In this document: piece after piece, positions 14,242 to 35,208 of the stretch
How the letters are laid out: every line of letters begins with the position of its first letter
Position numbering within the stretch: position 1 is the stretch's first letter
Source: Marinihelvus fidelis
GTDB taxonomy: Bacteria > Pseudomonadota > Gammaproteobacteria > Xanthomonadales > SZUA-36
Length of the DNA stretch: 64,000 bases
Assembly: GCF_008725655.1 (NCBI RefSeq)
Contig: NZ_VYXP01000002.1
Span: forward strand, 1 to 64,000
Direction: 5' to 3'
The notes under the pieces: model-generated
What the model was told of the DNA's origin: nothing
The model's input: only the letters and a program-made list of their open reading frames with translations
Database searches by the model: none
Program-made: the position numbers and the translations under genes

Positions 14242-14246
14242 ACCGG

Positions 14247-14531: not shown

Positions 14532-14624
14532 TCGCAGAGTCTATTCAAGTTATCGCCATCGGGACAGGTGCATATTCAGGCTAGAATCCGCCATTGAACT
14601 GATGTCAGCCTATTGAAGACCGCT

Positions 14625-19014: not shown

Positions 19015-19102
19015 TTCGGGTGGATATCACTTGATGTCATTAGCAGTCGGTATACTTCATCAACCCCGCGGCGGACACGGACTTCTCGGAGTCAACCATC
19101 GA

Positions 19103-20485
19103 ATGAAGGTCGAAACGATCTACAGACACCTGCCTGTATCGGCCCAAAATCTCGCACTGTCATTTAAGGGCCACCAGTTAAAAAGGCAGCGTTTCGGCGG
19201 GCAATTTTCAGAAAGGCTCGAACTTGCGATGCAACGAACAAACTGGTCCGTCGACCGGGTTGAACAATACCAGCTCGACCAACTGAATCAGTTGCTGTCC
19301 CACGCGAAAACCAGTTCACCGTACTACGAAAATTTGCTCAAGGATTCGCCTCGAAAGTTTAGCTCGCTCTCCGAACTTGGTTCACTTCCCGTTCTCGAAA
19401 AAGCGTCACTCAGAGAACAGACTGACGCCATACGCAGCAATGCGTTTTCCAAATCTTCACTGATCAAGATCAATACCAGTGGCACAACGGGCACGCCGCT
19501 GAACCTGGGTTTTACCCCGGCCGACCTGCAAGAACGTCACGCGACACTCTACCGGTTCTACGCGTGGTACTGCATTCATCCCGGAGTGCGAAATGCACGT
19601 TTCAGCGGCAAACCGATCTTTGACAACACTCGAAACGGTCGGGTTTTCTGGAGAAAAAACGCTTCCGGCAACCAGTTGCTAATGTCGTCCTATCATTTGC
19701 ATCCCGACAATGCCTCCGCCTACCTTGAAGCATTGACATCATTCCAACCGGAACTGATGGACGGATACCCATCAATGATGTGTTTCGTTGCCCGAAAGAT
19801 CGTCGATGATGGCCGCCAGGGTTGCGTCAAGCCAAAGCTCATCATGTCGACTGCCGAGCAACTGGACCCGTCCCAACGCTCTCTGCTGGAAGAGGCGTTC
19901 CAATGTCCGGTGGCCAACTTCTACTCGTCCTCCGAAGGCGCACCATTTATCACCGAAGCCCCGAACGGTGAACTTGTAATCAATTCTGACTCGGGCGTGT
20001 TCGAATTCGTCAAACCGGGAACGGAATCGTCCGCCGGCCCCGGCGAATTCGCAGAACTCCTGGTCACCAGCTTCACCTCTTACGCTTACCCCCTGATCCG
20101 GTATCGAATTGGAGACACCGTCACCGTTCCCGAGAAGCCATCTTTTTCAAGTTTCGTGACCAGCATGCCGGTCATCGGATCGATCAACGGTCGGCGAGAC
20201 GACATTCTGTGGACGCGCCATCGCGGCGAAGTGGTCGCCCTGAATCGTATTTTTTCCAATGTTCCATCCACTATTCTGGAAAGCCAGGTCGTCCAGCAAA
20301 CGCCGGATAAAGTCCTGTTCCGGTACGTACCCGATATCAGAAATGGTTTTTCATTGAATCATCTGGATTCGATAAAACACGAAATCCTTCAACGGTTGGG
20401 GCCCGTGGAAATCAGGTGTGAATCATTCGAATCACTACCTCGGGGGGCGAACGGAAAACTCAGGGCGGTGATTCGGGAATTTTGA
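19103..20485 (+). CDS. CapK/PaaK-like AMP-dependent ligase
   Basis: A 460-residue member of the adenylate-forming superfamily close to phenylacetate-CoA ligase and the CapK proteins of capsule loci. The AMP-binding P-loop NTSGTTGTPL lies at about residues 124-133, and a second block YPLIRYRIGDTV near 340 matches the A8-type region. ATG 19103 is favoured because GGAG lies 11 bp upstream; an earlier ATG at 19031 would add an atypical leader. It is the only plus-strand gene inside the EPS locus, facing a divergent glycosyltransferase and converging on another 7 bp away. CapK homologues are presumed to activate an acyl or amino substituent, but the real substrate is unknown. Confidence 0.85.
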   Translation: MKVETIYRHLPVSAQNLALSFKGHQLKRQRFGGQFSERLELAMQRTNWSVDRVEQYQLDQLNQLLSHAKTSSPYYENLLKDSPRKFSSLSELGSLPVLEKASLREQTDAIRSNAFSKSSLIKINTSGTTGTPLNLGFTPADLQERHATLYRFYAWYCIHPGVRNARFSGKPIFDNTRNGRVFWRKNASGNQLLMSSYHLHPDNASAYLEALTSFQPELMDGYPSMMCFVARKIVDDGRQGCVKPKLIMSTAEQLDPSQRSLLEEAFQCPVANFYSSSEGAPFITEAPNGELVINSDSGVFEFVKPGTESSAGPGEFAELLVTSFTSYAYPLIRYRIGDTVTVPEKPSFSSFVTSMPVIGSINGRRDDILWTRHRGEVVALNRIFSNVPSTILESQVVQQTPDKVLFRYVPDIRNGFSLNHLDSIKHEILQRLGPVEIRCESFESLPRGANGKLRAVIREF

Positions 20486-20492
20486 TACTTCT

Positions 20493-21746
20493 TCAAGTCG
20501 CCTGCTTAGCGAGATTCCGGACGCTTGAAACGTGTCGGTATATCTTCCGGTAGGAACCCACACCCCGCTCGAGACTGAACGTTTGTTCGGCTGTTTGTCG
20601 ACAGCGACCGGACAATGACTCATCGGCTAACAATCGGGTTAACGATTGAATGAAAGTCGCTGGCTCACTCTCAACAAACTCAACGCCCACACGATTGTCC
20701 GTGATGATCCGATACACCTCCTCAATTCCGCGGTTGCTGATGACCGGCCGACCGCAGCCCAGGATTTCCCCGAGCTTCGTCGGGCAACTGCCGAGTTTTG
20801 CCAGGCCGCCTTTGAAAAACATCATGGATGCCGTTTGCTTCTGGACGATCGCGGGCATTTCTTCCGGTGCTGCCTCGAATATCTCCACCTTCTCAACCTG
20901 GCAACCTTCTTCTGCCAACCGGCGTTTCACTTCCGCATGGTCATCCCTGGTGACAATCTGCAGTCGCGCCGACGGAAACGCATCAGCCAGAGCGTTAAAG
21001 CTTCGCGCCAGAAGATCGAGCCTGAACCAGCCACTCAACACCGTACCGTTGCAGCCGAAAATCAGTTGATCACCGGGTTCGATTTTGGGGGTGAAGGCCG
21101 ACAGATCAGCACAGGTCGGAATCACGTGAATCTGCCGGCCTGCCAAAGCGATTGGATACTGCTTTTCCAAATGATCCGCAGCCGCCTTGGTCAATGAAAC
21201 AGTTTCGCCATTCATTAAGCATTGTCGCTCTAGAGAAACCAACCCCTTGTGCACTAGAGAACCCCGTTTGAGCCTCCGAGCCAAAATGAGCTCTTCCGGC
21301 CACAACGCGCGCATGTCAAAAACAAACGGAATGTCATACCGCTTGAACATCGCAAGGCCGGCCAACGCAGGAAGGTAGCTTCGCGCATGCACAATCACCT
21401 TGCCTCGCTTGTGCTCTCGACGAACCGTTGCTGCAAACTGAAACAACTGACGCAGAATGGATATCGAGCGAGGACCCTGCTCGAATGGCAGCGGTTTCCA
21501 CTCTATGCCTATTTGCCGGCAACTAAGTCTGGCGGCATCAACCTTTGCTCGATCAGCAAAATCGGCCTTCTTCTCGCAGGTCACGAGCACGATGCGGAAG
21601 TTGCTTGCCAGCGCTTGGAGATAGGCAAACACTTGTGATTGCCCCAAGGGCTCCAGTAGGCCAGTGCGGGTCAGATAAACAACAGTCAAGTCATGCTCAG
21701 AAGAAGCTGAACCCCCAAGTGCTAAACCTGAACTATGTTCAGGCAT
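20493..21746 (-). CDS. GT4 family glycosyltransferase
   Basis: A 417-residue GT-B enzyme. The N-terminal domain has LTVVYLTRTGLLEPLGQSQV, typical of GT4 enzymes that bind acceptor lipids. The donor-binding domain has the GNGTVLSGWFRLDLLARSF segment and KLGEILGCGRPVISNRGIEE, with Glu in the expected place. The start overlaps the end of the methyltransferase gene by 8 bp, so the two are coupled. It converges on the CapK-like gene. The sugar cannot be predicted. Confidence 0.87.
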   Translation of the reverse strand: MPEHSSGLALGGSASSEHDLTVVYLTRTGLLEPLGQSQVFAYLQALASNFRIVLVTCEKKADFADRAKVDAARLSCRQIGIEWKPLPFEQGPRSISILRQLFQFAATVRREHKRGKVIVHARSYLPALAGLAMFKRYDIPFVFDMRALWPEELILARRLKRGSLVHKGLVSLERQCLMNGETVSLTKAAADHLEKQYPIALAGRQIHVIPTCADLSAFTPKIEPGDQLIFGCNGTVLSGWFRLDLLARSFNALADAFPSARLQIVTRDDHAEVKRRLAEEGCQVEKVEIFEAAPEEMPAIVQKQTASMMFFKGGLAKLGSCPTKLGEILGCGRPVISNRGIEEVYRIITDNRVGVEFVESEPATFIQSLTRLLADESLSGRCRQTAEQTFSLERGVGSYRKIYRHVSSVRNLAKQAT

Positions 21747-22539
21747 TTCCGAAAGCGAGCGGCTTCACAACAATTCCTACGTACTTTCCCTCGCACTCTG
21801 TCACCCCGAACCTGGGCTTCACCTTCTCCACGAAGTTTTTGAAGGCAAAATTGTCCTGAATATCATCGGAAATGAGTATTCCGCCTGGCCTGAGTGCACG
21901 CCAAAGTAATGGGTAAGCGTACCTTCGCCCCCACCATGATTTGTCACTGTCATAGTGGCAAAGGTCAATTTGCCCATCAAATTCAGCAATCGCTTCTTTC
22001 AGGCCGTTTCGGTCAGGCTTTCGAATGATCTTCCATAACGATCTCAATCTGTCCGGAACTGCAACACCTACCCATGGTTCGTTATCCATCTTTGGATAAG
22101 GCATATCAACACTGACCAACCTGCCACCCTTATTGTGTTCCAGTGCAGCAAGGATCGCGAGTGAAGACCAGCCATATGCCACTCCAGTCTCAATGACCCT
22201 GGCAGCACCAATACGAACAACAGCTTGGGCAATCAAATCCAGATCGCCCGGCCCACCCATGCTCAATGGGCATCGAGACACTCTTTCTTTGGCCTCGGTA
22301 ACAAGAGCCTTGGGCAGCTCAAAACGACTTTCATCGTTCAGCTCCAACCCAACGCTTTCCAACACGATGTCGGCGTCTTCGGCTTGCTCATTCGCCCAAG
22401 CTGTCGCCGCGGCACGTAGTGCTGCAGAGTCATGGTTCTTTCTGAACTTGCGCAGAACCAAACCCGCCATGTGAGACCAATGGTCTGGCCTTTGAACAAA
22501 CCAAAATATCGTCTTGAACTTCTCAGCAATCGTGCTCAT
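21739..22539 (-). CDS. Class I SAM-dependent methyltransferase
   Basis: A 266-residue protein with a Rossmann-type methyltransferase core. Motif I is VIETGVAYGWSSLAIL (about residues 117-132), motif II is GGRLVSVDMPY, an acidic IDLCHYDSDKSW follows, and a later GGILISDDI strand completes the fold. The layout resembles the Methyltransf_24/CmcI-like group used on small molecules and sugars. It sits between two glycosyltransferases, overlapping one by 8 bp and sharing one base with the stop of the other, so it probably methylates a sugar or a chain end of the EPS. The acceptor is unproven. Confidence 0.85.
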   Translation of the reverse strand: MSTIAEKFKTIFWFVQRPDHWSHMAGLVLRKFRKNHDSAALRAAATAWANEQAEDADIVLESVGLELNDESRFELPKALVTEAKERVSRCPLSMGGPGDLDLIAQAVVRIGAARVIETGVAYGWSSLAILAALEHNKGGRLVSVDMPYPKMDNEPWVGVAVPDRLRSLWKIIRKPDRNGLKEAIAEFDGQIDLCHYDSDKSWWGRRYAYPLLWRALRPGGILISDDIQDNFAFKNFVEKVKPRFGVTECEGKYVGIVVKPLAFGNA

Positions 22540-23636
22540 CAGGTTGGGCCGAATAGCGTCAAATATTTATTGGCGGCGACTTCTGGGCTAAATTCAGCTG
22601 CTCGCTTTTTCAGCGCTTCAACGTCATGAGGTGCAGTTATCTGCCGCAGGATCATTTCAGCAAGCGCTCCCGGGTCATCCTGACTTACCAAAGCGCCGTA
22701 CCGGCCGTTATCAAGTATTTCAGCCGGTCCACTCATGCAATCCGTACTGACGACCGGTGTTCCATAGGCAAGCGATTCCACGATTACGTTTCCAAACCCC
22801 TCCCAACGAGACGACAAGACAAACAGGTCGGCATCGTTGTAAAAAGGCCCTGGGTCGGGCCTTGCTCCAACAAGCCGGACATATTCGCCAAGCCCCGACC
22901 GACTACACTGCGCGTTGAGCTGCGCCCTTAACTTTCCTTCGCCAATAATCAGGAGTCGCACATCCAGTCTCGCCGAGACCATGCTCATTGCATCCAGAAG
23001 CACGTCAAACCCTTTCTGGCGTTTCAGGTTTCCCACAGCCAACAACTTGGCCGCACCTCCCTGCCACCATCGAACCAGATGACGATCTTCCTCAGCAAAC
23101 TCTGTGGCGCCTGAAACCGAGATTGGGTTATGAATGACCTTCACTGACTTACTAGGCAGTCGTGCAATTTCACCAAGGCTGTCTTTGACCCCTTGCGAAA
23201 CCGCAACAACATGACCGGTAAGCGGGTAGATAAATCTACCGAGATAGCGCAGGAGCCTACGTTCGAAAGTCGTTATGGCTGGCGCCCGGCGAAAATCGTT
23301 ATGTTCACTCACAATCAGGGTTCCATTGAACCCGCTGGTTTTGCAAGCAACCGAAGCAACGCCAGTCAATGGCCACATTGCAGCCAGAAGTGCATCTGGT
23401 TGTTCCTTACGAAGGTATTGATGCAGCGGCCACCATGCTTCTCGTATTCGCGCGACATTCAAGCTTTTGACTGCAACTCCTTGAGGGACTTGTTGAAGCA
23501 AATCCCCGCGACGCTGCATCACTAGCAACTTGACTAAGAATCCGGCGTTCCTGAATTTTTCAGCTAGAGAAAGCTGAACCTTTTCCACACCACCAATTCG
23601 CAAATCAGGTAAGAGAATGGATATTTGGTAACTCAA
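22539..23636 (-). CDS. GT4 family glycosyltransferase, TTG start
   Basis: A 365-residue GT-B glycosyltransferase. The N-terminal ISILLPDLRIGGVEKVQLSL is typical for GT4 enzymes, and the donor site has SRWEGFGNVIVESLAYGTPVV with the E-x7-E pair. The start codon is TTG at 23636, whose last two bases overlap the TGA of the frame upstream (TTGA), a coupling arrangement. There is no ATG in the first 39 codons, and the fold needs the N-terminal strand, so TTG is well supported. Its stop shares a base with the methyltransferase ATG. Confidence 0.87.
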   Translation of the reverse strand: MSYQISILLPDLRIGGVEKVQLSLAEKFRNAGFLVKLLVMQRRGDLLQQVPQGVAVKSLNVARIREAWWPLHQYLRKEQPDALLAAMWPLTGVASVACKTSGFNGTLIVSEHNDFRRAPAITTFERRLLRYLGRFIYPLTGHVVAVSQGVKDSLGEIARLPSKSVKVIHNPISVSGATEFAEEDRHLVRWWQGGAAKLLAVGNLKRQKGFDVLLDAMSMVSARLDVRLLIIGEGKLRAQLNAQCSRSGLGEYVRLVGARPDPGPFYNDADLFVLSSRWEGFGNVIVESLAYGTPVVSTDCMSGPAEILDNGRYGALVSQDDPGALAEMILRQITAPHDVEALKKRAAEFSPEVAANKYLTLFGPT

Positions 23637-23921: not shown

Positions 23922-24470
23922 TCAGTCAGGTGATAGAACTTTTACGCGCTTTGCCGGAATTCCGGCGTAAACAGCGCCACTAGCCAACCTCCCCTTCACA
24001 AGCGAATTTGCACCGACTACAACGCCAGATTCAATTTTGCTGCCTCTTAAAACCGTTACTTTCGCACCGAGCCAAACATTACTTTCAATAACAACCGGCT
24101 TGATTGCGAACTCTTGGTGGCTAATGCGGCCTTTCGAAATCGCATGATCCTGATCCCGAATCGTCACGTACTCGCCAATCAGTCCATCGTCACCGATAGA
24201 AATGGACGATTTGGCCACAACCGTAGTTCCGTGAGAAACATGAGTTCGATCACCGATGTGAATAGCCGCACCTCGAGAAACGATCATCACATTCCTGCCC
24301 AAGAACACACCTGAACCAATGTGCACTTTACCGCCATCAGTGCAACGAATTACCACCCCATTATCGACCAAGACATTGCTTGAAAAAGAGACTTGCCCTT
24401 TGGAGCAAAGCTGTATCAGCTTCCGACGAAATACGGAATTTGCTATTCGAAGAACTCGCGTTATTCCCAT
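23922..24470 (-). CDS. Hexapeptide-repeat acyltransferase
   Basis: A 182-residue acyltransferase of the left-handed beta-helix type, from ATG 24470 (an upstream ATG at 24500 would overlap the sulfotransferase by 40 bp). Hexapeptide repeats run from about residue 35 to 165 (VHIGSGVFLGRNVMI, IHIGDRTHVSHGT, IESNVWLGAKVTVL). They end in the typical YAGIPAKRVKVLS cap. This group O- or N-acetylates sugars with acetyl-CoA. The base composition is lower in GC than that of the flanking genes. It probably decorates the EPS repeat unit; the acceptor is unknown. Confidence 0.88.
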   Translation of the reverse strand: MGITRVLRIANSVFRRKLIQLCSKGQVSFSSNVLVDNGVVIRCTDGGKVHIGSGVFLGRNVMIVSRGAAIHIGDRTHVSHGTTVVAKSSISIGDDGLIGEYVTIRDQDHAISKGRISHQEFAIKPVVIESNVWLGAKVTVLRGSKIESGVVVGANSLVKGRLASGAVYAGIPAKRVKVLSPD

Positions 24471-25432
24471 GTTTGTCGCCCACGCGTCAACGGCAAACAC
24501 CCGAGCGCACTTAGCCTGTCCATGTCGTGCTGAATTGTGGCGCCCAGTATCTTTAGGACTTGCTCTCTTTCCATGCCCGTTTGTTGAAATTCGGACTCAT
24601 TGAAGTTCCGAACGATCTGTTTAAGCCGCTGTGTATTTAGTCCCAAATGTTTTGAAACACGAGAGATTCGCTTCAACCATTGTGGTGGCCTTTTGTATGC
24701 TTCTGACAGAAATAGACTTTTTGGTTTTCGAGCGACGTTAATTCTGTCAAACAGAATCCCACCTTCTGAATGCAGCCCCAAGAACTCCAGAACTTCTTTC
24801 CAGGCAGCGCTTACCGAGCCAGCCCAATCCTCCATCCACAATATTTTGACGCGCTCGCTTCCGAATATTTCAATGTAACGCTGCACTTGAGGCCCAAATG
24901 AAGCCACCTTCGAGTACTCCAGGAACCGGGAATCACGACAATGCCGAGGCACCTTCTCTCCCCGCGACCGGATCGACTCAAGTTGCAAGGCGACCTTGAT
25001 ATCAGATTGGTCTTCATCAAGATTGATCAGAAGTTGCTGGTGATACGAACGCAAGAACTCCGCATGATCACGCAGGAATATCAAAATGCGCGCGTCAGCA
25101 TTGTAGTCGAAGATATTTTTAGCACTCTCACTAGAGTACAGATACATGACTGACGCCTCTCCACGTACCGCTGCGTCCCCGGCGGTGCTAAAAAGTTGGT
25201 CATACTGTTCCTTGGACTTCACCCATCTGAAACTTTCAAAGTCGGTATTGAAATAGTGAGGTTCTTTCGGCTCTGCCATAAAAATCTCTGGATGTCTCGA
25301 CAGGTAATACCACCACGCTGTGGTACCGCACTTGGGTGCACCTACGATAAATAGGTTAGCCTTAGGCAGGGCAATACCCCACGACTGAACTGTCCACGGC
25401 GATAGTTCGTCGAATGCGAACCCAGGCAGCAA
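24461..25432 (-). CDS. Sulfotransferase
   Basis: A 323-residue PAPS-dependent sulfotransferase. The 5'-phosphosulfate-binding loop FIVGAPKCGTTAWWYYLSRH lies at about residues 28-47, and the 3'-phosphate-binding region has RSYHQQLLIN. A later VKILWMEDW segment fits the fold. The open frame overlaps the flippase gene by 71 bp, so the true start may lie closer to LPKANLF. It shares the AT-richer composition of its neighbours. It probably sulfates a sugar of the exopolysaccharide or a glycolipid; a PAPS supply must come from elsewhere. Confidence 0.88.
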   Translation of the reverse strand: MLPGFAFDELSPWTVQSWGIALPKANLFIVGAPKCGTTAWWYYLSRHPEIFMAEPKEPHYFNTDFESFRWVKSKEQYDQLFSTAGDAAVRGEASVMYLYSSESAKNIFDYNADARILIFLRDHAEFLRSYHQQLLINLDEDQSDIKVALQLESIRSRGEKVPRHCRDSRFLEYSKVASFGPQVQRYIEIFGSERVKILWMEDWAGSVSAAWKEVLEFLGLHSEGGILFDRINVARKPKSLFLSEAYKRPPQWLKRISRVSKHLGLNTQRLKQIVRNFNESEFQQTGMEREQVLKILGATIQHDMDRLSALGCLPLTRGRQTWE

Positions 25433-26660
25433 TGTTCCAAAGCAACGTCACGACGAGCGTTGCAACCGCAGCACCAAGCACTCCCAATTTTGGTACCAGA
25501 ATCAAATTTAGTACGATATTGATTGTTGCGGAAAACATAAGAACCTTTGAATACCAGGCCTGTGCGCCACTCATGATCAAAAGCAATCCTGTCAACCCGA
25601 ACCCTGTATTAATCAACTGTGCAACGATTAAGACACGCAAAGAATCGAGCCCATTAAGATAACTAGAACCAAACCAGGCCAACACATACGGGCTTGCCAC
25701 CCAGACAATCACAACCAGAATAATGGTCAGAGAAAAAGCAACTCTTGTTCCTGTTTTAATCGCAATTTGAAGCTTTGTGATCTCCCCTCGCTTCAACCAC
25801 TTGGCACACCGCGCCCCATGACTGATACCAAGTGCCGTAAGGGTGATAGCGACCAGGTCAGCGAAACGAGTAGCTAACACGTAAGCTCCGGTGCTGGATT
25901 CGTCAACCAGAAACCCGAGCATAATTACATCAACTTGACGATTGAGGACCATTGCCGCAGCAACGAACAGCAAACTAGCACACGCGAATATCCATTGATT
26001 TCGGGTTGAAGGATCAGGATATTGAAAACTCATTCCCCGACCCGCGAGGACGCCAACACAAAGCACAGCCAGAGCGATCACCGCAGCAAATAAATAGAGC
26101 GAGATTGCCAAATCGGCATCTACCTGGATACCCGATTGCCAACACGCAACGACCATCGCGACCAGCAATAGAGGCCTGAGAACACCATCAGGCCCTTGGG
26201 CGAGCAAAAACCTTTGCTCACCTTTTGCGACGCCCTTGAAAGGAGCAATGATCGAAAAAACCAAGATCAGACCGCCCACAACCAGTTTGGCTGCACCGCC
26301 AAGAGCACCCACACCTCTTTCGCCGACAGTTTGGATCATAATGTTTGCAAGACTCACCGAGCACAAAGCGAATGCCAATACTGTTATAACGCTAAATCCC
26401 ACGAGCTCTTGGCGTAGCTGGAATCGAATTGCGCGGCCGCCCTTCGCACCAACTTCGCGGAACAGAAATGTTTCAGTTCCGAATGCACCTAAAATCGACG
26501 CAATTCCGACGATACTGAGTGCATGCCCGTAGATTCCGTATTGCTCAGGAGGCATGATTTTGGCTAGTAGCAACCCTGAAAACGCCATTGCCGCGAGGGT
26601 CGCAGCCCGCAAAAGGAGACTTAGGCCAAATCCTCGCAGCTTAATCAGCCACCTCGCCAC
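25362..26660 (-). CDS. Polysaccharide flippase (Wzx-like)
   Basis: A 432-residue integral membrane protein with about 12 hydrophobic segments, of the MOP/polysaccharide-synthase exporter type. The N-terminal part has LLLRAATLAAMAFSGLLLAKIMPPEQYGIYGHALS, and the family's alternating hydrophobic pattern continues to the end. Wzx flips lipid-linked repeat units across the inner membrane. It starts 18 bp after the WbpP-like epimerase. GC content falls from here towards 23.6 kb. Specificity for the repeat unit cannot be read from sequence. Confidence 0.85.
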   Translation of the reverse strand: MARWLIKLRGFGLSLLLRAATLAAMAFSGLLLAKIMPPEQYGIYGHALSIVGIASILGAFGTETFLFREVGAKGGRAIRFQLRQELVGFSVITVLAFALCSVSLANIMIQTVGERGVGALGGAAKLVVGGLILVFSIIAPFKGVAKGEQRFLLAQGPDGVLRPLLLVAMVVACWQSGIQVDADLAISLYLFAAVIALAVLCVGVLAGRGMSFQYPDPSTRNQWIFACASLLFVAAAMVLNRQVDVIMLGFLVDESSTGAYVLATRFADLVAITLTALGISHGARCAKWLKRGEITKLQIAIKTGTRVAFSLTIILVVIVWVASPYVLAWFGSSYLNGLDSLRVLIVAQLINTGFGLTGLLLIMSGAQAWYSKVLMFSATINIVLNLILVPKLGVLGAAVATLVVTLLWNIAAWVRIRRTIAVDSSVVGYCPA

Positions 26661-26678: not shown

Positions 26679-27692
26679 CTATGGACAAAACCAACCAACG
26701 GACTGGCGCAGCCCTTGCGTGATCAGGATTGATGGCGCGTAGCCCAACATGGACGTGATCCCCTGAATATCCGCCAACGAATGTCGGACGTCGCCTACGC
26801 GAAAACTCCGATAATTCGGCCGTTGTACCGCCGCACCTTTTACCTTTTCCACTGCATTTGCTAGCCCATCGAACAACTCATTCAAAGTCGTACGCTCACC
26901 ACAAGCCACGTTATAAACCCGATTCACCGCATCCTCGTCTGCCACCGCTGCCAACAAGTTCGCCTGCACCGCGTTATCGATATAGGTGAAGTCCCGGCTC
27001 GTCTCCCCGTCCCCATTGATGTAGACCGGCTCGCCGCGCAGAATGGCGCCGATCCACTTTGGGATGACCGCGGCGTAGGCGCCGTCCGGATTTTGGCGCG
27101 GGCCGAATACGTTGAAGTAGCGCAGGCCGATCGAGTTGAAGCCGTAGCAGCGCGCGAAGACGTCGGCGTATAGCTCGTTGACGTACTTGGTGACCGCGTA
27201 GGGTGACAGCGGCTTGCCGATGCGCTCTTCCACCTTGGGCAGCTCTTCCGAGTCGCCGTAGGTGGAGCTCGAGGCGGCGTAGGTGAAACTCTTCACGCCT
27301 TCGTCTTTTGCTGCGACCAGCATGTTCAGGAAGCCGTCGATGTTCGCGCGGTTGGTGTTGATCGGGTCTTCGAGTGACCGGGGAACCGAACCCAGCGCGG
27401 CCTGGTGGGACACGTAATTGACCCCAGCCACGGCTCGGCGGCAGTCATCGAGGTCGCGGATGTCGCCTTCGATAAACCGGAAACGGGCCCATTGTTCGGC
27501 GCTTACACATGACCGCACGTCGTCAAGGTTGTGCTGGAAACCGGTCTCAAAGTTGTCCAGGCCGACAACGGCCTGGTCCAGCGACAGCAGTTTTTCCAGC
27601 AGGTTGGCGCCGATGAAACCGGCGACGCCGGTGACCAGCCAGGTCCTGGGTGTGGCCTTCAGCGCGGATTGGACTTCTTCGTATCGGGTCAT
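26679..27692 (-). CDS. wbpP: UDP-GlcNAc C4-epimerase, WbpP/TviC type
   Basis: A 337-residue short-chain dehydrogenase/reductase that interconverts UDP-GlcNAc/UDP-GalNAc or their uronic acids. The NAD-binding motif is [15 protein letters not shown] (about 21-35), the signature ASSSTYGDS supplies the Ser, and YAVTKYVNE the catalytic Tyr and Lys. The block [19 protein letters not shown] and [19 protein letters not shown] match Pseudomonas WbpP very closely. Two base pairs separate it from the WbpO-type dehydrogenase, so both act in making UDP-GalNAcA. The length is typical. Confidence 0.93.
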
Positions 27693-27694
27693 GC

Positions 27695-28963
27695 TTACAG
27701 CCTCGCCGTTGCCCGCGTGCCGAACACGCTCTTGATGTCAAAATACACACAGTCGCCGCGTCCCCAGCCGATCAGCGACTCGGCGGACACGGCCTCAAAC
27801 TGCCTGTGTGCGACGGCGCCGATGACCGCGTCATAGCTGTCTTGCGCCGGCTCGGTCACCAGGCGTATCCCCCGCGACTGTTCAGCGCTGACCCAGGGAT
27901 CCAGCACGTCCACGTCGCACCCGGCCGCCTGCAATTCCGCGATCAACCGAAACACCTGGCTATTCCGTGTATCCGGGCAGTTTTCCTTGAATGTCAGCCC
28001 CATGACCAACACACGCGCGCCGTCAGCGGCCACACCGCGCTCGGCCATCAGCCCAACCACTTTCGAGGCCACGAAGGTGGCCATGCCATCGTTCACACCG
28101 CGCCCGGCCAGGATGATCTGCGGGTCGAAGCCGACAGCCCGCGCCTTGTGGGTCAGGTAATACGGATCCACGCCAATACAGTGCCCGCCGACCAGGCCGG
28201 GTGTGAACGGCAGGAAATTCCACTTGGTGCCGGCGGCGGCGAGCACGTCGCGGGTATCCAGGCCCAGCCGGTCGAACAGCATCGCCAGTTCGTTCACCAG
28301 CGCGATGTTCACATCCCGTTGTGTATTTTCGATGACCTTGGCGGCCTCGGCGACGCGGACGCTGGGCGCGCGGTGGGTGCCCGCGGGCACGATGGCGCTA
28401 TATAGCCCGTCGATGAAGTCCAGTGACGCGGCGCAGCAACCGCTCACCACCTTGACGATGCTTTCCAGTCGCCGCGTGCGGTCGCCGGGGTTGATGCGCT
28501 CGGGGCTGTAGCCGTACCAGAACCCTTCGTTGCTGCCGCCCCGCAGGCCGGACAACTGCTCCAGCGCCGGCACGCAGACCTCCTCGGTGGCACCGGGGTA
28601 GACCGTTGACTCGAACACCACGGTATCGCCCGGCTGCAACTGCGGGCCGATGGCCTCGCAGGCGGCGTGCAATGGCGAAAGGTCGGGCTCGTTATCCTCG
28701 GTGACCGGGGTGGGGACAGTGACGATATAGACATTGCAGTCGGCCAGTACCGCAGCCTCGTGGCCCAGGCGCGCCCCACCAATCACCGCCAATTCCTCGG
28801 CAGAGAGTTCGCCGGTTCGGTCTGATCCGCTGGCCAGTTCCGTCACCCGGCCACGGTCAAGGTCGAAGCCGGTGACTTCAAAATGCCTGGCAAATGCCGC
28901 CATCAACGGCGCGCCCACGTAACCCAGCCCGATGATGGCGATGCGAGGCAATGAATGGCTCAT
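27695..28963 (-). CDS. wbpO: UDP-N-acetylhexosamine dehydrogenase, WbpO/TviB type
   Basis: A 422-residue nucleotide-sugar 6-dehydrogenase. The NAD-binding motif [14 protein letters not shown] lies near residues 11-24, the YIVTVPTPV segment follows, and the catalytic Cys is in [16 protein letters not shown]. It oxidises UDP-GlcNAc/UDP-GalNAc C6 to the uronic acid and works with the WbpP-like epimerase encoded 2 bp downstream. Its ATG overlaps the stop of the EPS regulator gene (ATGA). The same enzyme pair makes GalNAcA for Vi antigen and Pseudomonas O6, so a GalNAcA-containing EPS is expected. Confidence 0.93.
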
Positions 28964-29295
28964 TCGCCGCCCTCCCCGTTCACTTCACGCTGCAACTGTT
29001 CGATCTCGCCCTTCAGTCGTTCGTACTCGTCCATTCTCCTCTTCAGAAAGCGCGCGGTGATGCGCGCCTTCGCCTCAATGCCCTGCGGAGTGAGCTTGTA
29101 CAGGTAGGCGCGCTTGTTCTGGCTGTTGCGGAAGTTCCGGGCCTTGACCAGGCCTTTCTCCACCAGCGCGCGCAGGCAGTAGTTGGTCTTGCCCAGGCTC
29201 ACGCCCAGGTGTTCGGCCAGCTCGCGCTGGCTGACCTGCGGGTGGCTGTCCAGGTAGCGGAGCAGCCGGAACTGGGTTTCGTTGGGATTGCTCAT
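28960..29295 (-). CDS. MarR-type EPS-associated regulator
   Basis: A 111-residue winged-helix regulator from ATG 29295. The HTH is at about residues 18-48 ([28 protein letters not shown]), followed by a wing with [10 protein letters not shown] and an acidic helical tail. It matches the MarR-EPS group found at the head of exopolysaccharide operons. It is the first gene after the ops element; its stop overlaps the next gene's ATG. Frame extension to 29355 would run into the ops site, so the later ATG is preferred. It may act on the operon promoter or a distant one. Confidence 0.88.
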
Positions 29296-29325
29296 CATCT
29301 TGAATATGCCGTGCGCGGGAATCGG

Positions 29326-29338
29326 GCACGCTACCGCC
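29326..29338 (-). promoter_or_regulatory. ops element (RfaH recruitment site)
   Basis: The minus strand reads GGCGGTAGCGTGC, identical to the E. coli operon polarity suppressor element. It lies 46 bp past the rfaH-like stop and 31 bp before the ATG of the EPS regulator gene, in the transcribed leader of the large minus-strand operon. RfaH binds this non-template sequence in a paused polymerase and suppresses termination downstream. Confidence 0.85.
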
Positions 29339-29363
29339 ACACGGTGCGTGGGCACCGCGGGTG

Positions 29364-29382
29364 GAAAAACTCTGGCGCCAGA
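29364..29382 (-). terminator. Possible attenuator after rfaH-like gene
   Basis: The palindrome TCTGGCGCCAGA, followed on the minus strand by GTTTTTCC, lies between the rfaH-like stop and the ops element. The stem is short, so termination would be weak; its position fits an attenuator. Confidence 0.3.
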
Positions 29383-29383
29383 T

Positions 29384-29884
29384 TCAGACGGCGCGTTTCA
29401 GTGCCAGCGCATCCACTTCAACCAGGGTCGATCGCCCCAGCAGGCCCAGCATCAGCATGGCCCGGGTTTCACCACAGCGCTCGGCGAGCACGCCTTCAAG
29501 CCCGGCCAGCGGGCCGGTGAAGACCTGGACACGGTCCCCTACCCGCACCGGGTCAGGAGCCAACCTGATCAGGCCGGTCGCGTCGTCCTGTCGGGACCGT
29601 AAGGCCTGGATGACTCCAGCGTCGACCTGCAACAGGGAACACCCCGTGCGCACCAGGTCAACGGCGCCGCGGGTGGAACGCACGACCGCCAGGTTCTGCC
29701 GGCCGGGCTCCGCTTGCAGGAACAGGTAACGGGGAAACAAAGGTTCAGCGCGCAGCTTCTGTCGCCGCAGCTTCTGGTACGGGTTTTCCGCCAGCGGCAA
29801 AAAGCAATCGAAGCCCTGGCGCTGCAGGTGCTCTCTCGCGACCCGTTCCTGGCGAGGCCGGGTATAGACGGCAAACCACTCCAT
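29384..29884 (-). CDS. rfaH: RfaH-like transcription antiterminator
   Basis: A 166-residue NusG paralogue of the RfaH type. The N-terminal NGN domain starts [18 protein letters not shown] and has the strongly conserved [11 protein letters not shown], matching EPLFPNYLFV of E. coli RfaH. The C-terminal domain contains the KOW region [17 protein letters not shown], ending in [16 protein letters not shown], comparable to the RfaH end. RfaH couples paused polymerase at ops sites to translation in long operons. It lies between the WecA-type transferase and an ops element 46 bp downstream, so it likely controls the adjacent EPS operon in cis. Confidence 0.9.
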
Positions 29885-29907
29885 CCATTCACCTTAGCAG
29901 GTTGTGT

Positions 29908-30963
29908 TCACTCTTTGAACATGTGTACCCGCATCCAGCGCAGGTAGGCCACGCCGGTGGCGATAAAGGCGTAGAAACGAATGCACTCGGGCACGCCGAA
30001 CCACTCCATGGCAATGCCAGCAACCATGAACCCGGCACTCAGCAACACGACTACGCCCCAGGTCTGCCCCACACTGAGCCCTGACTGCGCCAGCGCGTGG
30101 TGCAGGTGCCGGTCGTCGGCACTGAAGGCGGACCGGCCGGCCCGCCAGCGGCTGGCCATCAAGCGGGTGGTATCGAGTAATGGTAGGCCGAAAATCCACA
30201 CCGCCGTCATCGGCGCGAAGGCACGCTCCACGCCCGTGCGGCTGCCATTGCCCAGGTCGATAAAGAACCAGGCCAGCAGCAGGCCCAGCAGCAATGAACC
30301 GGAATCACCCAAAAACACCCGGGCCACGGGGTTCCATGGCAGCCGTGCATTCAGTAAAAGGAAGCCGCATACCGCACCGGCCGAAACCAGCAGGCTGGGC
30401 AGCATGTCGGCCCGGCCGCCCACGGCCGCCAGCAGTGCCATCGACAGGCAACAGAGCACAAAAATGCTACCGCTGACGCCGTCGACACCGTCGATCATGT
30501 TGAACGCGTTGATGACACCCAGCGCCGCGAAGACCGTGATGGGCACCGCCAGCAGGCCAAGATCAAGGACCCGGTCCATGAACAGGCGCCCAAAATCCGC
30601 AAGGTAGACGTCGGCGACAAAAACCATGACCAGGCAGGCCATGGTCTGCAGGCCGAACCGCACGGAAGCGCTAAGGGGCCATCGGTCATCAACCAGCCCG
30701 GTCACCATGATCAACGCACAGGCGGCTGGTAATGCCGCGGTGCCAACACCAGCCAGCGCCAGGGTCGCGAACAATCCGCCAAAGATAGCCGGGCCACCCA
30801 CCAGTGGCGTGGGCTCAATGTGTTGCTTTCTCCCGGAAGGCCAGTCCAGCCACCCGGCCCGTCGGGCGACAGGCACCAGCGCCGCCGCCATCAGCAGCGT
30901 GATCCCTGCGGCCACCCATGGCCAGTTTTCCCCTTGCAATGACATTCCACCCTCCACGTCCAT
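29908..30963 (-). CDS. MraY/WecA-type glycosyl-1-phosphate transferase
   Basis: A 351-residue polytopic membrane enzyme that starts a lipid-linked glycan by moving a sugar-1-phosphate to undecaprenyl phosphate. Family motifs are VTGLVDDRWPLS (Asp pair), NAFNMIDGVDG, FLGDSGSLLLG and the HHALAQSG motif near the C-terminus. About ten membrane segments are visible. The start may be M1 or M7. It lies 23 bp upstream of the rfaH-like gene on the same strand. The likely sugar is GlcNAc or GalNAc, consistent with WbpO/WbpP supply, but not proven. Confidence 0.9.
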   Translation of the reverse strand: MDVEGGMSLQGENWPWVAAGITLLMAAALVPVARRAGWLDWPSGRKQHIEPTPLVGGPAIFGGLFATLALAGVGTAALPAACALIMVTGLVDDRWPLSASVRFGLQTMACLVMVFVADVYLADFGRLFMDRVLDLGLLAVPITVFAALGVINAFNMIDGVDGVSGSIFVLCCLSMALLAAVGGRADMLPSLLVSAGAVCGFLLLNARLPWNPVARVFLGDSGSLLLGLLLAWFFIDLGNGSRTGVERAFAPMTAVWIFGLPLLDTTRLMASRWRAGRSAFSADDRHLHHALAQSGLSVGQTWGVVVLLSAGFMVAGIAMEWFGVPECIRFYAFIATGVAYLRWMRVHMFKE

Positions 30964-31022
30964 GTGGCCGAATTATGATGCTATATTGGGTGTTGGTCGA
31001 ACCGGTTTTTTTTGAGGCCCAG

Positions 31023-32258
31023 ATGCCCATCCGCATGAAATGCCTTTCCAGGACGCCATTGTCCGTCCTGATCGCATCCGTTCTTGTCAGCCCAGCCATC
31101 CTGGGCCAGCAGGACGCCGACCAGACCACCCTGTACACCACGGTGGACGAGAAGGCCATTTACATCCAGCAGGGCGACCGCCAGATTGACGTCAAATCGG
31201 GTGAATCTGCGGCGATCACGCGCAGCGGGCTGGAGTTTTTGGATGCCCGCCCTGCGGCGCTTAACTGGCCCTGCGGTACCGGCTACGCCGGAAATCGCGG
31301 CCAGCTCGAGACCTTTGCCCTGGACAGCCTGCCAGCAGGTGAACAGATTCGCGGTGTCGCACAGAATTTCTTCGAACAGCAGATGGTGCTCGACAGCCAA
31401 CCGCATTTTCTTGATGGCGGCTCGCATGGGGCGTTTCCTGCAGCCGAGATCGATGCGTTTGTCTCCGACGCCTATTGGTATGTCGCCGGCCCCGCTGACG
31501 CGCCACAGGCCGCGTTGCGCCCGGACACACTGATCATCGGCCTGTTCTACGGCACCGGCCAGGTCATCGTTGACACCAATCACCTGGCAGACCTGAAGGC
31601 GAAGTACGGCGACGACCCTATTCCGACACTGTTCCAGTACCACGACCAGAACGTCGTGCCGATTTCCTACTTCGGCGACGCGCCTACGCCGGGAAACATC
31701 GCCCAGGTTTATGCGGAAAACGGCATCCTGCCCGCGTCGCCGCCGGTGATCTTTGCGGGTGATCGCCATACCGACTTTGTCGCCGAAGTACTGGCCGATT
31801 CGGTCGGCGCGCCGGCGATGGGCGATATCGACCCGGCCCGGGCGGCGCAGTTGCGAAACGACCTCTCCGCCAACGGTTTCAATGGCAAGCCCATCAACCT
31901 GGCGCTGGTGCCGGGTTCCGCCCAGGTCACAGCCGATGAGCCCGAACGTCTTCGGGTTGCGGGCAACATGGGCATGCAGACCGTGCCCGCGATGTTCTCG
32001 GTCTACGACGACGAATCACACGCGCGCCACTGCGGCGTCGCACCGCCGGTGGCCGCCGCGGGTGTCATGGGCACGGAACAGGGCGATGCACCGGGCGCGC
32101 AACCCCCGACTGATCCGCCGACGGACCCGGTACTACCCCCAACCATTCCATTGCCACCGGATGCCGGCCCGCCGGATGGTCCTGACCAGCCCCCGGTGCC
32201 GCCGGAAATCGAACTGCCCGACCCGCCCCAGCCGGAACTGCCGGCCAGCGAGAACTGA
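31023..32258 (+). CDS. Secreted Pro-rich protein of unknown function
   Basis: From ATG 31023 (411 residues; ATG 31035 also possible) there is a signal peptide (LSVLIASVLVSPAILGQ). A globular region of about 300 residues with no family that I recognise follows, then a Pro-rich tail from about residue 345 (PPTDPPTDPVLPPTIPLPPD). The tail could span peptidoglycan or bind a partner. It is divergent from the WecA-type gene and converges on the FecR-domain gene across a strong bidirectional terminator. A role beside the FecR/CHASE2 pair is plausible but only inferred. Confidence 0.7.
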   Translation: MPIRMKCLSRTPLSVLIASVLVSPAILGQQDADQTTLYTTVDEKAIYIQQGDRQIDVKSGESAAITRSGLEFLDARPAALNWPCGTGYAGNRGQLETFALDSLPAGEQIRGVAQNFFEQQMVLDSQPHFLDGGSHGAFPAAEIDAFVSDAYWYVAGPADAPQAALRPDTLIIGLFYGTGQVIVDTNHLADLKAKYGDDPIPTLFQYHDQNVVPISYFGDAPTPGNIAQVYAENGILPASPPVIFAGDRHTDFVAEVLADSVGAPAMGDIDPARAAQLRNDLSANGFNGKPINLALVPGSAQVTADEPERLRVAGNMGMQTVPAMFSVYDDESHARHCGVAPPVAAAGVMGTEQGDAPGAQPPTDPPTDPVLPPTIPLPPDAGPPDGPDQPPVPPEIELPDPPQPELPASEN

Positions 32259-32285
32259 TCATGGTTCCGGCCACTGGCCGGGCAT

Positions 32286-32318
32286 AAAAAAACCGCGCCC
32301 TGGAGCGCGGTTTTTTTT
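32286..32318. terminator. Bidirectional intrinsic terminator
   Basis: The stem CCGCGC (32293-32298) with GCGCGG (32305-32310) has a CCTGGA loop. It is flanked by seven A residues on the left and eight T residues on the right, so it works on both strands. It separates two convergent genes. Confidence 0.9.
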
Positions 32319-32338
32319 GTCCCTGGAAACGTCGCGAA

Positions 32339-32824
32339 CTATTCGCTGAAGCTCGCGCCCTCTTCTTGGCAGATGGTGCCGTCGTCACACAGCAGAACCG
32401 AGAACTCGGTGCCGCGGACACCCATCAGCGCCACCGGCGTTTCCACCTTGAAGCTCTCGGGTTCAGACTTCGCCATCGCGCCGGTCAGGACGCGCAGGCC
32501 ACCTTCGACCAGGCTCAGCGTTGCCGCATTACCTTCCTGGCCGTTGTAGACGTATTCCTTGATGTCGAGGATGCTGTTCGGCGTCACCGTCACCTTGGCG
32601 CCGTCCACGAATTGCAGCACCGCAAAGCTCTTTGGCCCGGTGATGATCCGCTCTTCCTCGCTGACCCCGTCCCCGCGTTGCAGGGCGCGCCGATCGGTCT
32701 CGCGTTCGGCGAATACATCACCGCGCGAGGCCACCAGCATGGCCGTGTCGTCATCCGCGACCGCCGGGAGCGTGGCTGCCAGTGCCATGATTCCCGCGAT
32801 CAGGGTAGTGCGAAACCTATTCAT
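32339..32824 (-). CDS. Secreted FecR-domain protein
   Basis: A 161-residue exported protein with a signal peptide (LIAGIMALAATLPAVA). One FecR-type domain covers residues about 30-145 (VASRGDVFAE...ALQRGDGVSEEERIITG...VTPNSILDI...VRGTEFSV), ending in a Cys pair (LLCDDGTICQ). FecR domains of this free, non-membrane kind occur with CHASE2 sensors and OmpA-type partners. It lies 173 bp downstream of the CHASE2 cyclase gene on the same strand. It may supply a periplasmic input to that sensor; no direct evidence is available. Confidence 0.85.
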   Translation of the reverse strand: MNRFRTTLIAGIMALAATLPAVADDDTAMLVASRGDVFAERETDRRALQRGDGVSEEERIITGPKSFAVLQFVDGAKVTVTPNSILDIKEYVYNGQEGNAATLSLVEGGLRVLTGAMAKSEPESFKVETPVALMGVRGTEFSVLLCDDGTICQEEGASFSE

Positions 32825-32997: not shown

Positions 32998-35208
32998 CTA
33001 TTTCGAGTCGTGCGTATAAACGCCATCCCAGTCCGCTGGCGGGGGCTCCGCCCTGAACGTGCGAATGCGCTGCAGGTACATGCGGTAAAGCAACTTGTCC
33101 GGCACCTGGTCAACCAAGTCCAGCATGATGCCCTCGGCGCCATCCCAGTCCAGTGCGCGGTACAGTTTCATCGCCTGTTCGAACTGCAACAGGCGGGCGC
33201 GTTCGATGTCCGGCACCCTCGACGCCTCACCAACCACTTCGTAGATGCCAACCGGCAACCGCTTGCCCTTGACCCGGACGCGATCGATCTCGCGGTAGAG
33301 AAAGCGGTCCGCGGCGGCGTCCCGGGTGAACTCGCTGACCAGCATCTCGACCCCGTAGGCCTTGGTCAGCCCTTCAAGCCGCGACCCCAGGTTGACCGAG
33401 TCACCCAGCACGGTATACGCGCGCCGGAACCGCGAACCCATGTTGCCCACGCTCATGGTGCCGGTATTGACGCCGACACCGATCTTCAACTCGGGTTTGC
33501 CCTCCTCGACAAATGATTCGTTCAGCGCGGTCAACGCGTTCAGCATGCCCAGGCCAGCGACAATCGCGTGCTCGGCATGGTTGGCGTCGCGCAGCGGCGC
33601 GCCCCAGAACGCCATGATGCAGTCGCCCATGTACTTGTCGATGGTGCCGTGGGTCTCGTGTACAACCTCGGTCATCGGCGTCAGGAAGCGGTTCAGCAGG
33701 TCAGACAGCTCCTGTGCGTCCAGTGCCTCGGAGATGGTTGTGAACGAGCGGATATCGGTAAACAGTACCGACAGTTCCCGTTTCTCACTTTCCATCGAGT
33801 AGTGGGTCGGGTCATGCGCCATTTCCGAGACCAGATCCGGCGGCACGTATTGGCCGAACAGGTCGTTCATGTGCGAACGGCTGCGTGACTCGAAGAAGTA
33901 GCCGTAGACCATGTTGAGCAGGTAGGTACCAAACAACACGATCAGCGTGGTTGCCAGCGGCAGGACATGGAGCTTCTCGTCCCAGAGGTAGGCATTGGTC
34001 CATACCGCGGCAGTCACCATGACGATCAGCAGCAACGTGGCGTACACCGCCGACAGCACCGGCAACACCAGCGCGGCCAGCAGGCCGAAGGCCAGCACGG
34101 CGATGAGTTCCGCGGCCTGGGTATAGGCCGGTTGCCAGCGGAAGCTGTTGTCGAGAATGCCCGCCAGCACGTTGGCATGGACCTCCACCCCGGGGTAAAT
34201 CGAGCCGAATGGCGTCGATCGCAGGTCAACCAGCCCCGGGGCCGTCGCGCCGATCAGCGTGATCGAACCGGCCAGTTGTTCGGGGTTGGGCACAGTGCCG
34301 TTGATGACGTCAGTGGCCGACACGTAATTGAAACTGCCGGCGCCACCACGGTATGGCACGAGCACCGCGCCCTGGGCGTCAACGGGGATGTGCCGTTCAC
34401 CCAGAACAATGGCCTCCAGCGGCGGATAGCCTTGCAGCAACAACGGTGCGTCAACAAACACCGGCAGTGCGATGTCATCCAAGTAGGTCGACGCCATGGC
34501 CAGCGACAGCGACTCGTAAGCGTTGTTGCCGTAGGCGTGCAGCAGCGGCGCACGCCGAACGATGCCGTCCTCACCGATCAGCGGGTTGCTGATAAAACCC
34601 GCGGACCAGGCGCCCTCGGTGATCTCCGGCACATTGGCGCTGTAGCCCGTCGCGGTGGGCAGGCGGATATCGTCACGGATAGCGTCGTCGAACTCGAACG
34701 CCGCAATCGGCAGGTCGCCAGTCTCGTACTGGGCCCGTTCATCGGTATGGAAATAGAAGGCAACCACGCTGCGGCCCTGTGCCAGGGCATCGCCAAAGAT
34801 CGCGTCCCGGTCAAGCTGCGGCGAGAACCGTTCCAGTTTGCGGCTGAATGCCGGGTCCTGGCGACCAAGCTGCTTCAGCGTTTCGAGTTCGAAACTGACA
34901 TCCCGTTCCGGGAACACTACGTCGAAACCGACCACCTCGACCCCGTAGGCGTACAACTGCGAAACCAGTCGCGCCAGCTTGTCGCGCGACCAGGGCCAGT
35001 GGCCCTCGGCGTCCAGGCTGCGTTCATCCAGGGCGATGATGACGATCTTGTCATCCTTGCCGCCCGGGGCGCTCAGGCGCACCCGCGTGTCGTACAGCAG
35101 TCGTTCGAACTGCGCCACGAACGGAATGTGAATATTGCCCAGGATATGTGCCGCCAGCAGGCCGATAAGCGCCAGGGAAGACACCAGCCGGATCAGGTAA
35201 CGTTTCAA
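32998..35208 (-). CDS. CHASE2-domain adenylate/guanylate cyclase
   Basis: A 736-residue membrane-bound class III nucleotide cyclase. An N-terminal membrane anchor precedes a periplasmic CHASE2 sensor domain of about 320 residues (DDKIVIIALDERSLDAEG..., GSITLIGATAPGLVDL). Three membrane segments then lead to the cyclase domain from about residue 475 (LSVLFTDIRSFTTISEAL). The metal Asp pair lies in FTDIR and YMGDCIMAFWGAP, and the transition-state region is VLGDSVNLGSRLE. It probably makes cAMP or cGMP in response to an envelope signal. Its neighbours are the FecR protein and the O-antigen-ligase-type protein. Confidence 0.9.
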   Translation of the reverse strand: MKRYLIRLVSSLALIGLLAAHILGNIHIPFVAQFERLLYDTRVRLSAPGGKDDKIVIIALDERSLDAEGHWPWSRDKLARLVSQLYAYGVEVVGFDVVFPERDVSFELETLKQLGRQDPAFSRKLERFSPQLDRDAIFGDALAQGRSVVAFYFHTDERAQYETGDLPIAAFEFDDAIRDDIRLPTATGYSANVPEITEGAWSAGFISNPLIGEDGIVRRAPLLHAYGNNAYESLSLAMASTYLDDIALPVFVDAPLLLQGYPPLEAIVLGERHIPVDAQGAVLVPYRGGAGSFNYVSATDVINGTVPNPEQLAGSITLIGATAPGLVDLRSTPFGSIYPGVEVHANVLAGILDNSFRWQPAYTQAAELIAVLAFGLLAALVLPVLSAVYATLLLIVMVTAAVWTNAYLWDEKLHVLPLATTLIVLFGTYLLNMVYGYFFESRSRSHMNDLFGQYVPPDLVSEMAHDPTHYSMESEKRELSVLFTDIRSFTTISEALDAQELSDLLNRFLTPMTEVVHETHGTIDKYMGDCIMAFWGAPLRDANHAEHAIVAGLGMLNALTALNESFVEEGKPELKIGVGVNTGTMSVGNMGSRFRRAYTVLGDSVNLGSRLEGLTKAYGVEMLVSEFTRDAAADRFLYREIDRVRVKGKRLPVGIYEVVGEASRVPDIERARLLQFEQAMKLYRALDWDGAEGIMLDLVDQVPDKLLYRMYLQRIRTFRAEPPPADWDGVYTHDSK

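Follow-up and report, generated by a model that had tools for sequence, protein, structure and literature searches.

An RfaH-like gene followed by a perfect ops element in an EPS locus of Marinihelvus fidelis, and the same arrangement in related genomes

In E. coli, RfaH serves several unlinked operons (PMC7593976). It reads the ops element through a flipped-out T6 held in a pocket of H20, R23, Q24 and R73, with K10, H20, R23 and R73 contacting the DNA, and ops bases G4, G5, A7 and G8, which are dispensable for pausing, are required for RfaH (PMC5995543). According to Wang et al. 2020, a detailed mode of recruitment was known for E. coli RfaH only (PMC7593976); a similar statement is made in two other reviews, which also discuss an ancestral recruitment in cis (PMC6391919, PMC7819879). 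In these 2019-2021 reviews, cis action is proposed to have come first, and ops reading and action in trans later (PMC6391919, PMC7819879, PMC7593976). UpxY, TaA and ActX lie in or beside the operon that they control or are thought to control (PMC7593976, PMC7819879), and LoaP adjoins its operon (PMC12691694). The RfaH clusters of Wang et al. 2020 lie beside envelope genes, with CL4 beside a helix-turn-helix regulator (PMC7593976), and a 2026 preprint finds most RfaHs that are predicted to be monomorphic inside or next to long operons, unlike the majority of metamorphic ones (PMC13015549). A conserved stem-loop has been noted in JUMPstart elements (Weinberg et al. 2010, PMC2864571).

Here, we describe a locus of Marinihelvus fidelis, found in a stretch of 64,000 nucleotides (positions 1 to 64,000 of contig NZ_VYXP01000002.1, assembly GCF_008725655.1; hereafter the window), in which an RfaH-like gene is followed by ops. 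The locus shares with E. coli RfaH/ops the fold, the DNA-reading residues (K10 appearing as Arg), an identical ops and polysaccharide genes downstream, but E. coli rfaH stands alone (as a control, the K-12 rfaH locus had no ops match with at most two mismatches in 8 kb), whereas here factor and site adjoin and the assembly yielded one of each. With the JUMPstart element RF01707 it shares a stem-loop ending 1 nt before ops in a polysaccharide leader, in a layout identical to that of E. coli rfb and of the Rfam JUMPstart model; the window stem is, however, divergent and lies 3' of the rfaH gene. No JUMPstart was found in the window at the Rfam gathering score of 35 (the leader scored 13.9 bits), which was reached by none of the 18 relatives tested, while E. 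coli rfb scored 60 bits under RF01707.

The regulator lies beside its putative operon as in UpxY, TaA and ActX, whose recruitment was called unknown in the 2019-2021 reviews, whereas in the present locus a recruitment site of a known type can be recognised; the window protein is also nearer to RfaH than to UpxY (129.9 versus 85.6 bits). LoaP binds an RNA hairpin, the leader RNA hairpin matters for its antitermination, and no specific DNA recruitment sequence is reported for it in the text of PMC12691694, whereas the window has a DNA ops and an RNA stem without a known reader. CL4 RfaHs, compared by description only, share a regulator neighbour, and the beta-RfaHs of the 2026 preprint likewise adjoin envelope operons, but in the portions of these descriptions covered no adjacent ops is mentioned. 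Our literature search, which covered mostly the main text of open-access papers, returned no report of ops beside a cis-encoded rfaH. The parts are known. Their combination was not found described: an RfaH-like gene with a JUMPstart-like stem and ops just 3' of it, occurring in the EPS loci of numerous Gamma- and Betaproteobacteria, and a natural change of a recognition base.

Table 1. Features of the EPS locus in the window (positions in the 64,000-nucleotide stretch)
Feature	Position	Strand	Evidence or remark
Weak sigma-70-like promoter candidate	30972..31000	-	before wecA-like gene; promoter scan
WecA-like glycosyl-1-phosphate transferase	29908..30963	-	PF00953 121 bits; TIGR02380 219 bits (cut-off 326)
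RfaH-like NusG paralog, 166 aa	29384..29884	-	TIGR01955, PF02357, PDB match, fold match
Terminator-like hairpin and T run, at rfaH stop, 5' of ops stem	29375..29394	-	hairpin scan
JUMPstart-like stem-loop (8 bp, 4-nt loop)	29340..29359	-	ends 1 nt 5' of ops
Perfect ops element GGCGGTAGCGTGC	29326..29338	-	exact 13-mer; R1 model 35.5 bits
MarR family EPS-associated regulator	28960..29295	-	TIGR04176 162.2 bits, above cut-off of 88
Nucleotide-sugar dehydrogenase (TviB-like)	27695..28963	-	TIGR03026 348 bits, above cut-off
NDP-sugar epimerase (TviC-like)	26679..27692	-	NF011728 500 bits, under cut-off of 760
Polysaccharide flippase-like protein	25362..26660	-	PF01943 29.6 bits, barely above cut-off
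Sulfotransferase-like protein	24461..25432	-	PF00685 29.9 bits, cut-off 22
Hexapeptide-repeat acyltransferase-like protein	23922..24500	-	PF00132
GT4 glycosyltransferase	22539..23636	-	PF13692 125 bits
Methyltransferase	21739..22539	-	PF13578 58 bits
GT4-like glycosyltransferase, end of clear run	20493..21746	-	PF13439 33 bits

The minus strand runs from the wecA-like gene through the rfaH-like gene, the stem-loop, ops and marR_EPS into the polysaccharide genes, as far as about 20493 (Table 1), with the wecA-like gene ending 23 bp 5' of the rfaH-like gene and marR_EPS starting about 30 bp 3' of ops. The earlier note had reported a perfect ops 46 bp downstream of an rfaH-like gene, in the leader of the EPS operon. 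The exact 13-mer and its place behind the gene were confirmed, at a corrected distance of 45 bp from the stop codon; the site does precede the marR and EPS genes, but it is internal to a co-directional run that includes the wecA-like gene and rfaH. The promoter candidate before the wecA-like gene is the sole promoter-like site in 27500-32500, a count in line with shuffles (0.8 expected) and no evidence of function. The terminator-like hairpin at the rfaH stop could act as an attenuator, although shuffled sequence yields such hairpins at a similar rate (2.2 +/- 1.4 expected, 4 found). The best match of the dehydrogenase was the TviB model, at 471 bits and under its cut-off of 592. Around the locus, we observed a CHASE2 and guanylate/adenylate cyclase gene (32998-35208, minus strand) and a 484-codon plus-strand ORF (19031-20485), which lacks a Pfam match, runs opposite to the flanking EPS genes and may be spurious. 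Farther away, at 13309-15722, a weakly matching HPr-kinase-like gene (under cut-offs) adjoins an NTP_transf_5 nucleotidyltransferase (PF14907, 117 bits), a pairing known from lasso-peptide clusters.

In the 3.43 Mb assembly there is a single exact copy of the 13-mer, alongside 13 one-mismatch sites, and the second-best match in the window, with one mismatch, lies at 46258 inside a plus-strand endonuclease/exonuclease/phosphatase ORF. Enrichment of the 13-mer across genomes was dropped as a line of evidence, with 17 exact occurrences in 39 family genomes against 15 for a reversed control; it is therefore the position of the site that constitutes the evidence. Eleven of these 17 belong to EPS loci that contain rfaH, marR or both, and three of the remaining six are in-frame Gly-Gly-Ser-Val codons within clear ORFs (L175-L177). 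From the control rate, we estimated the probability of an exact match on the right strand in the rfaH-marR gap by chance at about 5e-6.

All 13 one-mismatch sites of the genome lie within stop-to-stop frames of at least 203 codons, but the true site too lies in a long frame, of 194 codons, in this GC-rich DNA, which makes a dismissal of the former on the basis of frames weak. The score of a covariance model of stem plus ops (R1) is a better test for telling a true ops from one-mismatch sites. Under R1, which was built from 34 leaders including that of the window, the window site was the best in the genome at 35.5 bits (E 1.4e-7), followed by a site at 20.8 bits. A search of 41 genomes, run with stricter filters and at most 150 candidates per genome scored, gave 21 matches at E<1e-3 among the scored candidates, 20 of them in rfaH and/or marR loci and the last at a contig end (G053). 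Five of the six stray 13-mers were scored and reached 17-23 bits, the sixth genome (G023) being outside this search.

We extended the analysis to relatives of the rfaH-like gene by searching an alignment of 21 RfaH-like proteins against 84,980 named genomes and taking the best 80 of 365 relatives, a sample biased toward proteins that resemble the one in the window. An RfaH gene was placed in each of the 80; readable sequence extended 300 bp past its stop codon in 71 loci and 300 bp ahead of its start codon in 79. Among these best 80, an ops 12-mer with at most one mismatch followed rfaH within 300 bp on the same strand in 39 of 71 loci (31 exact), against 0.08 loci expected from dinucleotide shuffles. 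By contrast, no such 12-mer was found on the opposite strand within 300 bp after rfaH (0/71), or within 300 bp upstream of rfaH on either strand (0/79). This positional conservation refutes a chance occurrence of the 13-mer, a reading suggested by the genome-wide match to the reversed control and one to which we attach a negligible probability. It also shows that regulator and site, whose adjacency the earlier note had pointed out, form a recurring unit.

The distance from the rfaH stop codon to ops in the 39 loci has a median of 73 bp (range 44-242) and is at most 62 bp in 17. In a gap of this size, a stem-loop of 20-30 nt leaves little space for a further promoter unless it lies within the rfaH coding sequence, and ops is therefore probably carried on the rfaH transcript. 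The 39 loci belong mainly to Gammaproteobacteria (24, of which 16 are Lysobacterales) and Betaproteobacteria (10), in a set with many MAGs and a few doubtful labels. Within the same best 80, ops lay 0.7-1.7 kb 3' of rfaH in a further seven of the 71 loci and within 2.5 kb upstream in two (L097, L139), and no ops with at most one mismatch was found within 2.5 kb downstream of rfaH in 25. In 22 of these 25, the fetched stretch also contained no marR_EPS, and one of the 25 (L149) has a T6C variant of ops. In L104-L109, an RfaH-like clade keeps the reading residues, with neither ops (at most one mismatch) nor marR in the fetched stretch, which for L104 held less than 300 bp 3' of rfaH. Distant RfaH-like proteins are encoded in two genomes of about 1 Mb (L087, 6521-7012; L088, 3491-3985), and 44-61 bp beyond their genes comes TGCGGTAGCCTGT, which differs from ops by G1T and G10C.

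A second view was taken from the side of MarR_EPS. TIGR04176 was found above its cut-off in 10 of 39 family, 36 of 398 order and 43 of 369 class genomes, these sets overlapping. The 80 MarR loci comprise 79 over the cut-off and one just below it (L091), L021 being left out as having no MarR match, and they share genomes with the rfaH-side set (e.g. L013 and L093). Within 400 bp upstream of marR, 33 of the 80 (25 exact) had a 13-mer match with no more than one mismatch, and in 16 of the 33 no rfaH stood directly before the site. This frequency and the terminator-like hairpin after rfaH in the window would fit a reading in which ops acts chiefly on marR_EPS, by pausing or attenuation in the marR leader, with the RfaH-like protein incidental. 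We regard this as very unlikely: among the 39 ops-positive loci of the rfaH-side sample, marR_EPS lies on the 3' side of rfaH in 15, on the 5' side in 13 and elsewhere in three, and in eight none turned up in the stretch fetched; in the 13 loci with marR upstream, ops comes after rfaH instead. As ops follows rfaH with marR on either side, it tracks the 3' end of rfaH and not the 5' end of marR. On the MarR side, no ops with at most one mismatch was found within 400 bp upstream in 47 of 80 loci, and in several of these (e.g. L040, L046, L061, L065, L073, L085) ops lies 3' of an rfaH that follows marR. In the 22 loci with rfaH directly 5' of marR, 17 have ops and four the T6C variant, one (L090) having neither.

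The stem-loop was then compared across all 77 distinct ops sites collected, none of them chosen for its stem. In 56 of the 77, a 5-bp stem with perfect pairing (G-U included) ends exactly 1 nt 5' of ops, whereas 59 other offsets in the range 0-59 gave 4-25. A second stem score peaked at the same place, with a mean of 15.5 over offsets 0-2 and values of about 10-13 at the others (Wilcoxon p 1.9e-10, an optimistic value given that the sites are related), and shuffling of single leaders gave p<=0.05 in only 20 of 77. Covariation was assessed in 34 of the 77 leaders, picked after their stems were seen and aligned by MAFFT with a few misplaced rows kept. In these, a 9-bp stem had 88.2% of its cells paired, a figure biased upward by the selection for a visible stem; shuffles gave 68.5%, and sliding the stem gave 26-47%. 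Stem cells changed on both sides numbered 60 against 23.4 in shuffles, and the covariation score was 0.539 against 0.245, neither value being reached in 500 shuffles of these picked leaders; pairs with changes on both sides (7 of 9) were little above shuffles (mean 6.0, with 25 of 500 reaching 7). G-U pairs are common in the stem, which points to RNA. The E. coli ops pause has been described as distinct from hairpin-stabilised pauses (PMC11001881) and hence lends no support to a role of the stem in pausing. In one relative (G012, contig C88, L231), four stem-plus-ops elements lie on one strand of a single EPS locus with two marR_EPS genes, two of them 5' and two 3' of rfaH.

The RfaH-like protein found its best NCBIfam model in RfaH (TIGR01955, E 8e-38), at 129.9 bits and under the curated equivalog cut-off of 144.5, and for this reason we call it RfaH-like. 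It scored 85.6 bits with UpxY (cut-off 100, missed), 44.7 with LoaP (cut-off 125, missed) and 32.9 with NusG, and it matched PF02357 at 67 bits and E. coli RfaH in the PDB at E 3e-18. By PF02357, the assembly encodes two NusG-family proteins, this one and a NusG-like one. Positions 10, 20, 23, 24 and 73 carry Arg, His, Arg, Gln and Arg, and thus the residues predicted to read ops are kept, with Arg for K10; R73 is replaced in many ops-bearing loci of relatives (e.g. L091, L080, L061). R138 is an autoinhibition residue of RfaH, and it is kept in the window protein, as are E48 and I93, while F130 is Leu. E48, I93 and F130 are described as residues of autoinhibition in PMC7593976.

An AF2 model built from 71 sequences shows an NGN domain and a beta-barrel KOW domain (mean pLDDT 88.8, pTM 0.69), and the best PDB fold match is 8phk_P (E 1.5e-11), an RfaH fully recruited at an ops-paused complex. 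This model would suit a constitutively active, NusG-like RfaH that loads in cis without reading ops, which would serve as a pause giving it time. Such a reading also gains from the preprint, in which RfaHs predicted to be monomorphic lie mostly by or in long operons and those tested were ops-independent (PMC13015549). However, a model from 10 close relatives has an alpha-helical CTD, at low confidence (pLDDT about 40-60), and the bases that E. coli RfaH requires and pausing does not (G4, G5, A7 and G8) are invariant in 76 sites collected with one mismatch allowed anywhere. A change of T6 to C also accompanies a change of its contact residue, as set out below, and we consider loading without ops reading improbable.

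In ops-bearing relatives, residue 20 is His, Asn or Gln outside one clade, and the tree shows 19 changes of this residue among the rows that have an ops. In that clade (f11, a Lysobacterales family), the EPS-linked RfaH carries Cys20, and ops carries C6 in all seven readable Cys20 loci (L029; L149, identical to L035; L036; L041; L221-L223), as the single change GGCGGCAGCGTG in L029 and L221-L223 and with one further change in the other three. In an eighth f11 genome (G102), a contig end cuts the locus and the ops region is unreadable. T6 goes with His, Asn or Gln at residue 20 in all 63 other loci. A tree of 107 rows places a single change of base 6 and a single origin of Cys20 on the same seven rows (SH-aLRT 94); as this is one evolutionary event, the pairing is suggestive of a joint change of an ops base and its contact residue and is not statistical proof. 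Five f11 genomes (G048, G057, G065, G096, G102; L216-L220) carry a second RfaH with His20 and Glu24, and no ops was found after this paralog in the four with a readable flank.

The analyses above bear on the source of the protein that acts at the site. In 14 genomes, marR and ops occur with no rfaH adjoining in the fetched flank. In nine of them rfaH lies elsewhere, more than 100 kb away on the same contig (G127, G071, G528, G502) or, in draft genomes, on another contig (G111, G064, G614, G579, where the copy carries an in-frame stop, and G606), and so these lone sites are probably also served by a distant rfaH. In four others (G004, G012, G046, G485) rfaH lies within 15 kb of marR and ops, and in G589 only a NusG-like protein, and no rfaH, was found. 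In three loci (L048, L079, L139) ops precedes marR-rfaH, so that rfaH itself lies downstream of the site. As judged from gene arrangement, ops is not confined to use in cis across relatives. In the M. fidelis assembly itself, with one factor and one strong site found, the pair looks dedicated. The dedicated cis-acting unit proposed in the earlier note is thus supported as regards one factor, one strong site and the kept reading residues, but less so as regards action in cis only, given the distant rfaH in nine of the 14 genomes; that the unit could travel with the locus is a suggestion of that note.

Our preferred reading, which we hold to be likely, is that an RfaH-like factor made by the EPS operon itself loads at the ops of its own transcript and carries polymerase through the EPS genes. 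RNA polymerase would transcribe the wecA-like gene and rfaH, form the RNA stem-loop and pause at ops. The RfaH-like protein would then recognise the flipped-out T6 and adjacent bases of the non-template strand and bind polymerase. By displacing NusG and Rho and coupling ribosomes, it would allow the long run from marR_EPS through the sugar, transferase and flippase genes to be transcribed to its end. What the data show directly is the gene order, its conserved position and strand, the constant place and covariation of the stem, and the joint change of ops base 6 and residue 20 in one clade; the pausing, loading, exclusion of NusG and antitermination in this scheme are inferred from E. coli RfaH. 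Counting against the reading are the loci in which no site was found (25 of 71 on the rfaH side, within 2.5 kb downstream, and 47 of 80 on the MarR side, within 400 bp upstream), the three loci with rfaH behind ops, the two with sites within 2.5 kb upstream of rfaH, the replacement of R73 in many ops-bearing loci, the single origin of the Cys20/C6 pairing and the two differing models of the CTD.

In a variant of this reading, differing in the source of the protein, the factor would be an RfaH of the usual kind, working in trans, whose gene lies within the target locus by circumstance; rfaH would precede ops only to avoid runaway feedback, and the adjacency would reflect linkage. The likelihood of this variant falls a little short of even. 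It accords with the distant rfaH genes described above, with a second ops about 13 kb from rfaH in G004 and the four sites in one locus of G012, with the conservation of E48, I93 and R138, and with the seven of 71 loci (among the best 80 of 365) in which the nearest ops comes 0.7-1.7 kb after rfaH. Against it, the bias toward 44-242 bp, with marR on either side, is tighter than a place anywhere before the structural genes would need, and the three loci with rfaH behind ops run contrary to the avoidance of feedback. A bolder extension of the preferred reading, which we offer as speculative and consider rather unlikely in full, is a self-loading cassette, in which ops is kept behind its own rfaH so that fresh RfaH may be caught by the transcribing polymerase or the next one on the template. 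Such a cassette would be a living intermediate between cis-acting NusG paralogs and a trans-acting RfaH, one that already reads ops, and the one recoded clade (T6C/Cys20), with its His20 paralog, would provide natural orthogonal RfaH/ops pairs.

Collectively, these findings place operon-encoded RfaH-like factors with conserved reading residues beside a textbook ops, which makes the question of cis versus trans action testable at a defined site. The clade in which an ops base and its contact residue have both changed supplies a natural pair with which specificity can be tested, and the rfaH-ops arrangement bears on how NusG-paralog helpers find their targets.
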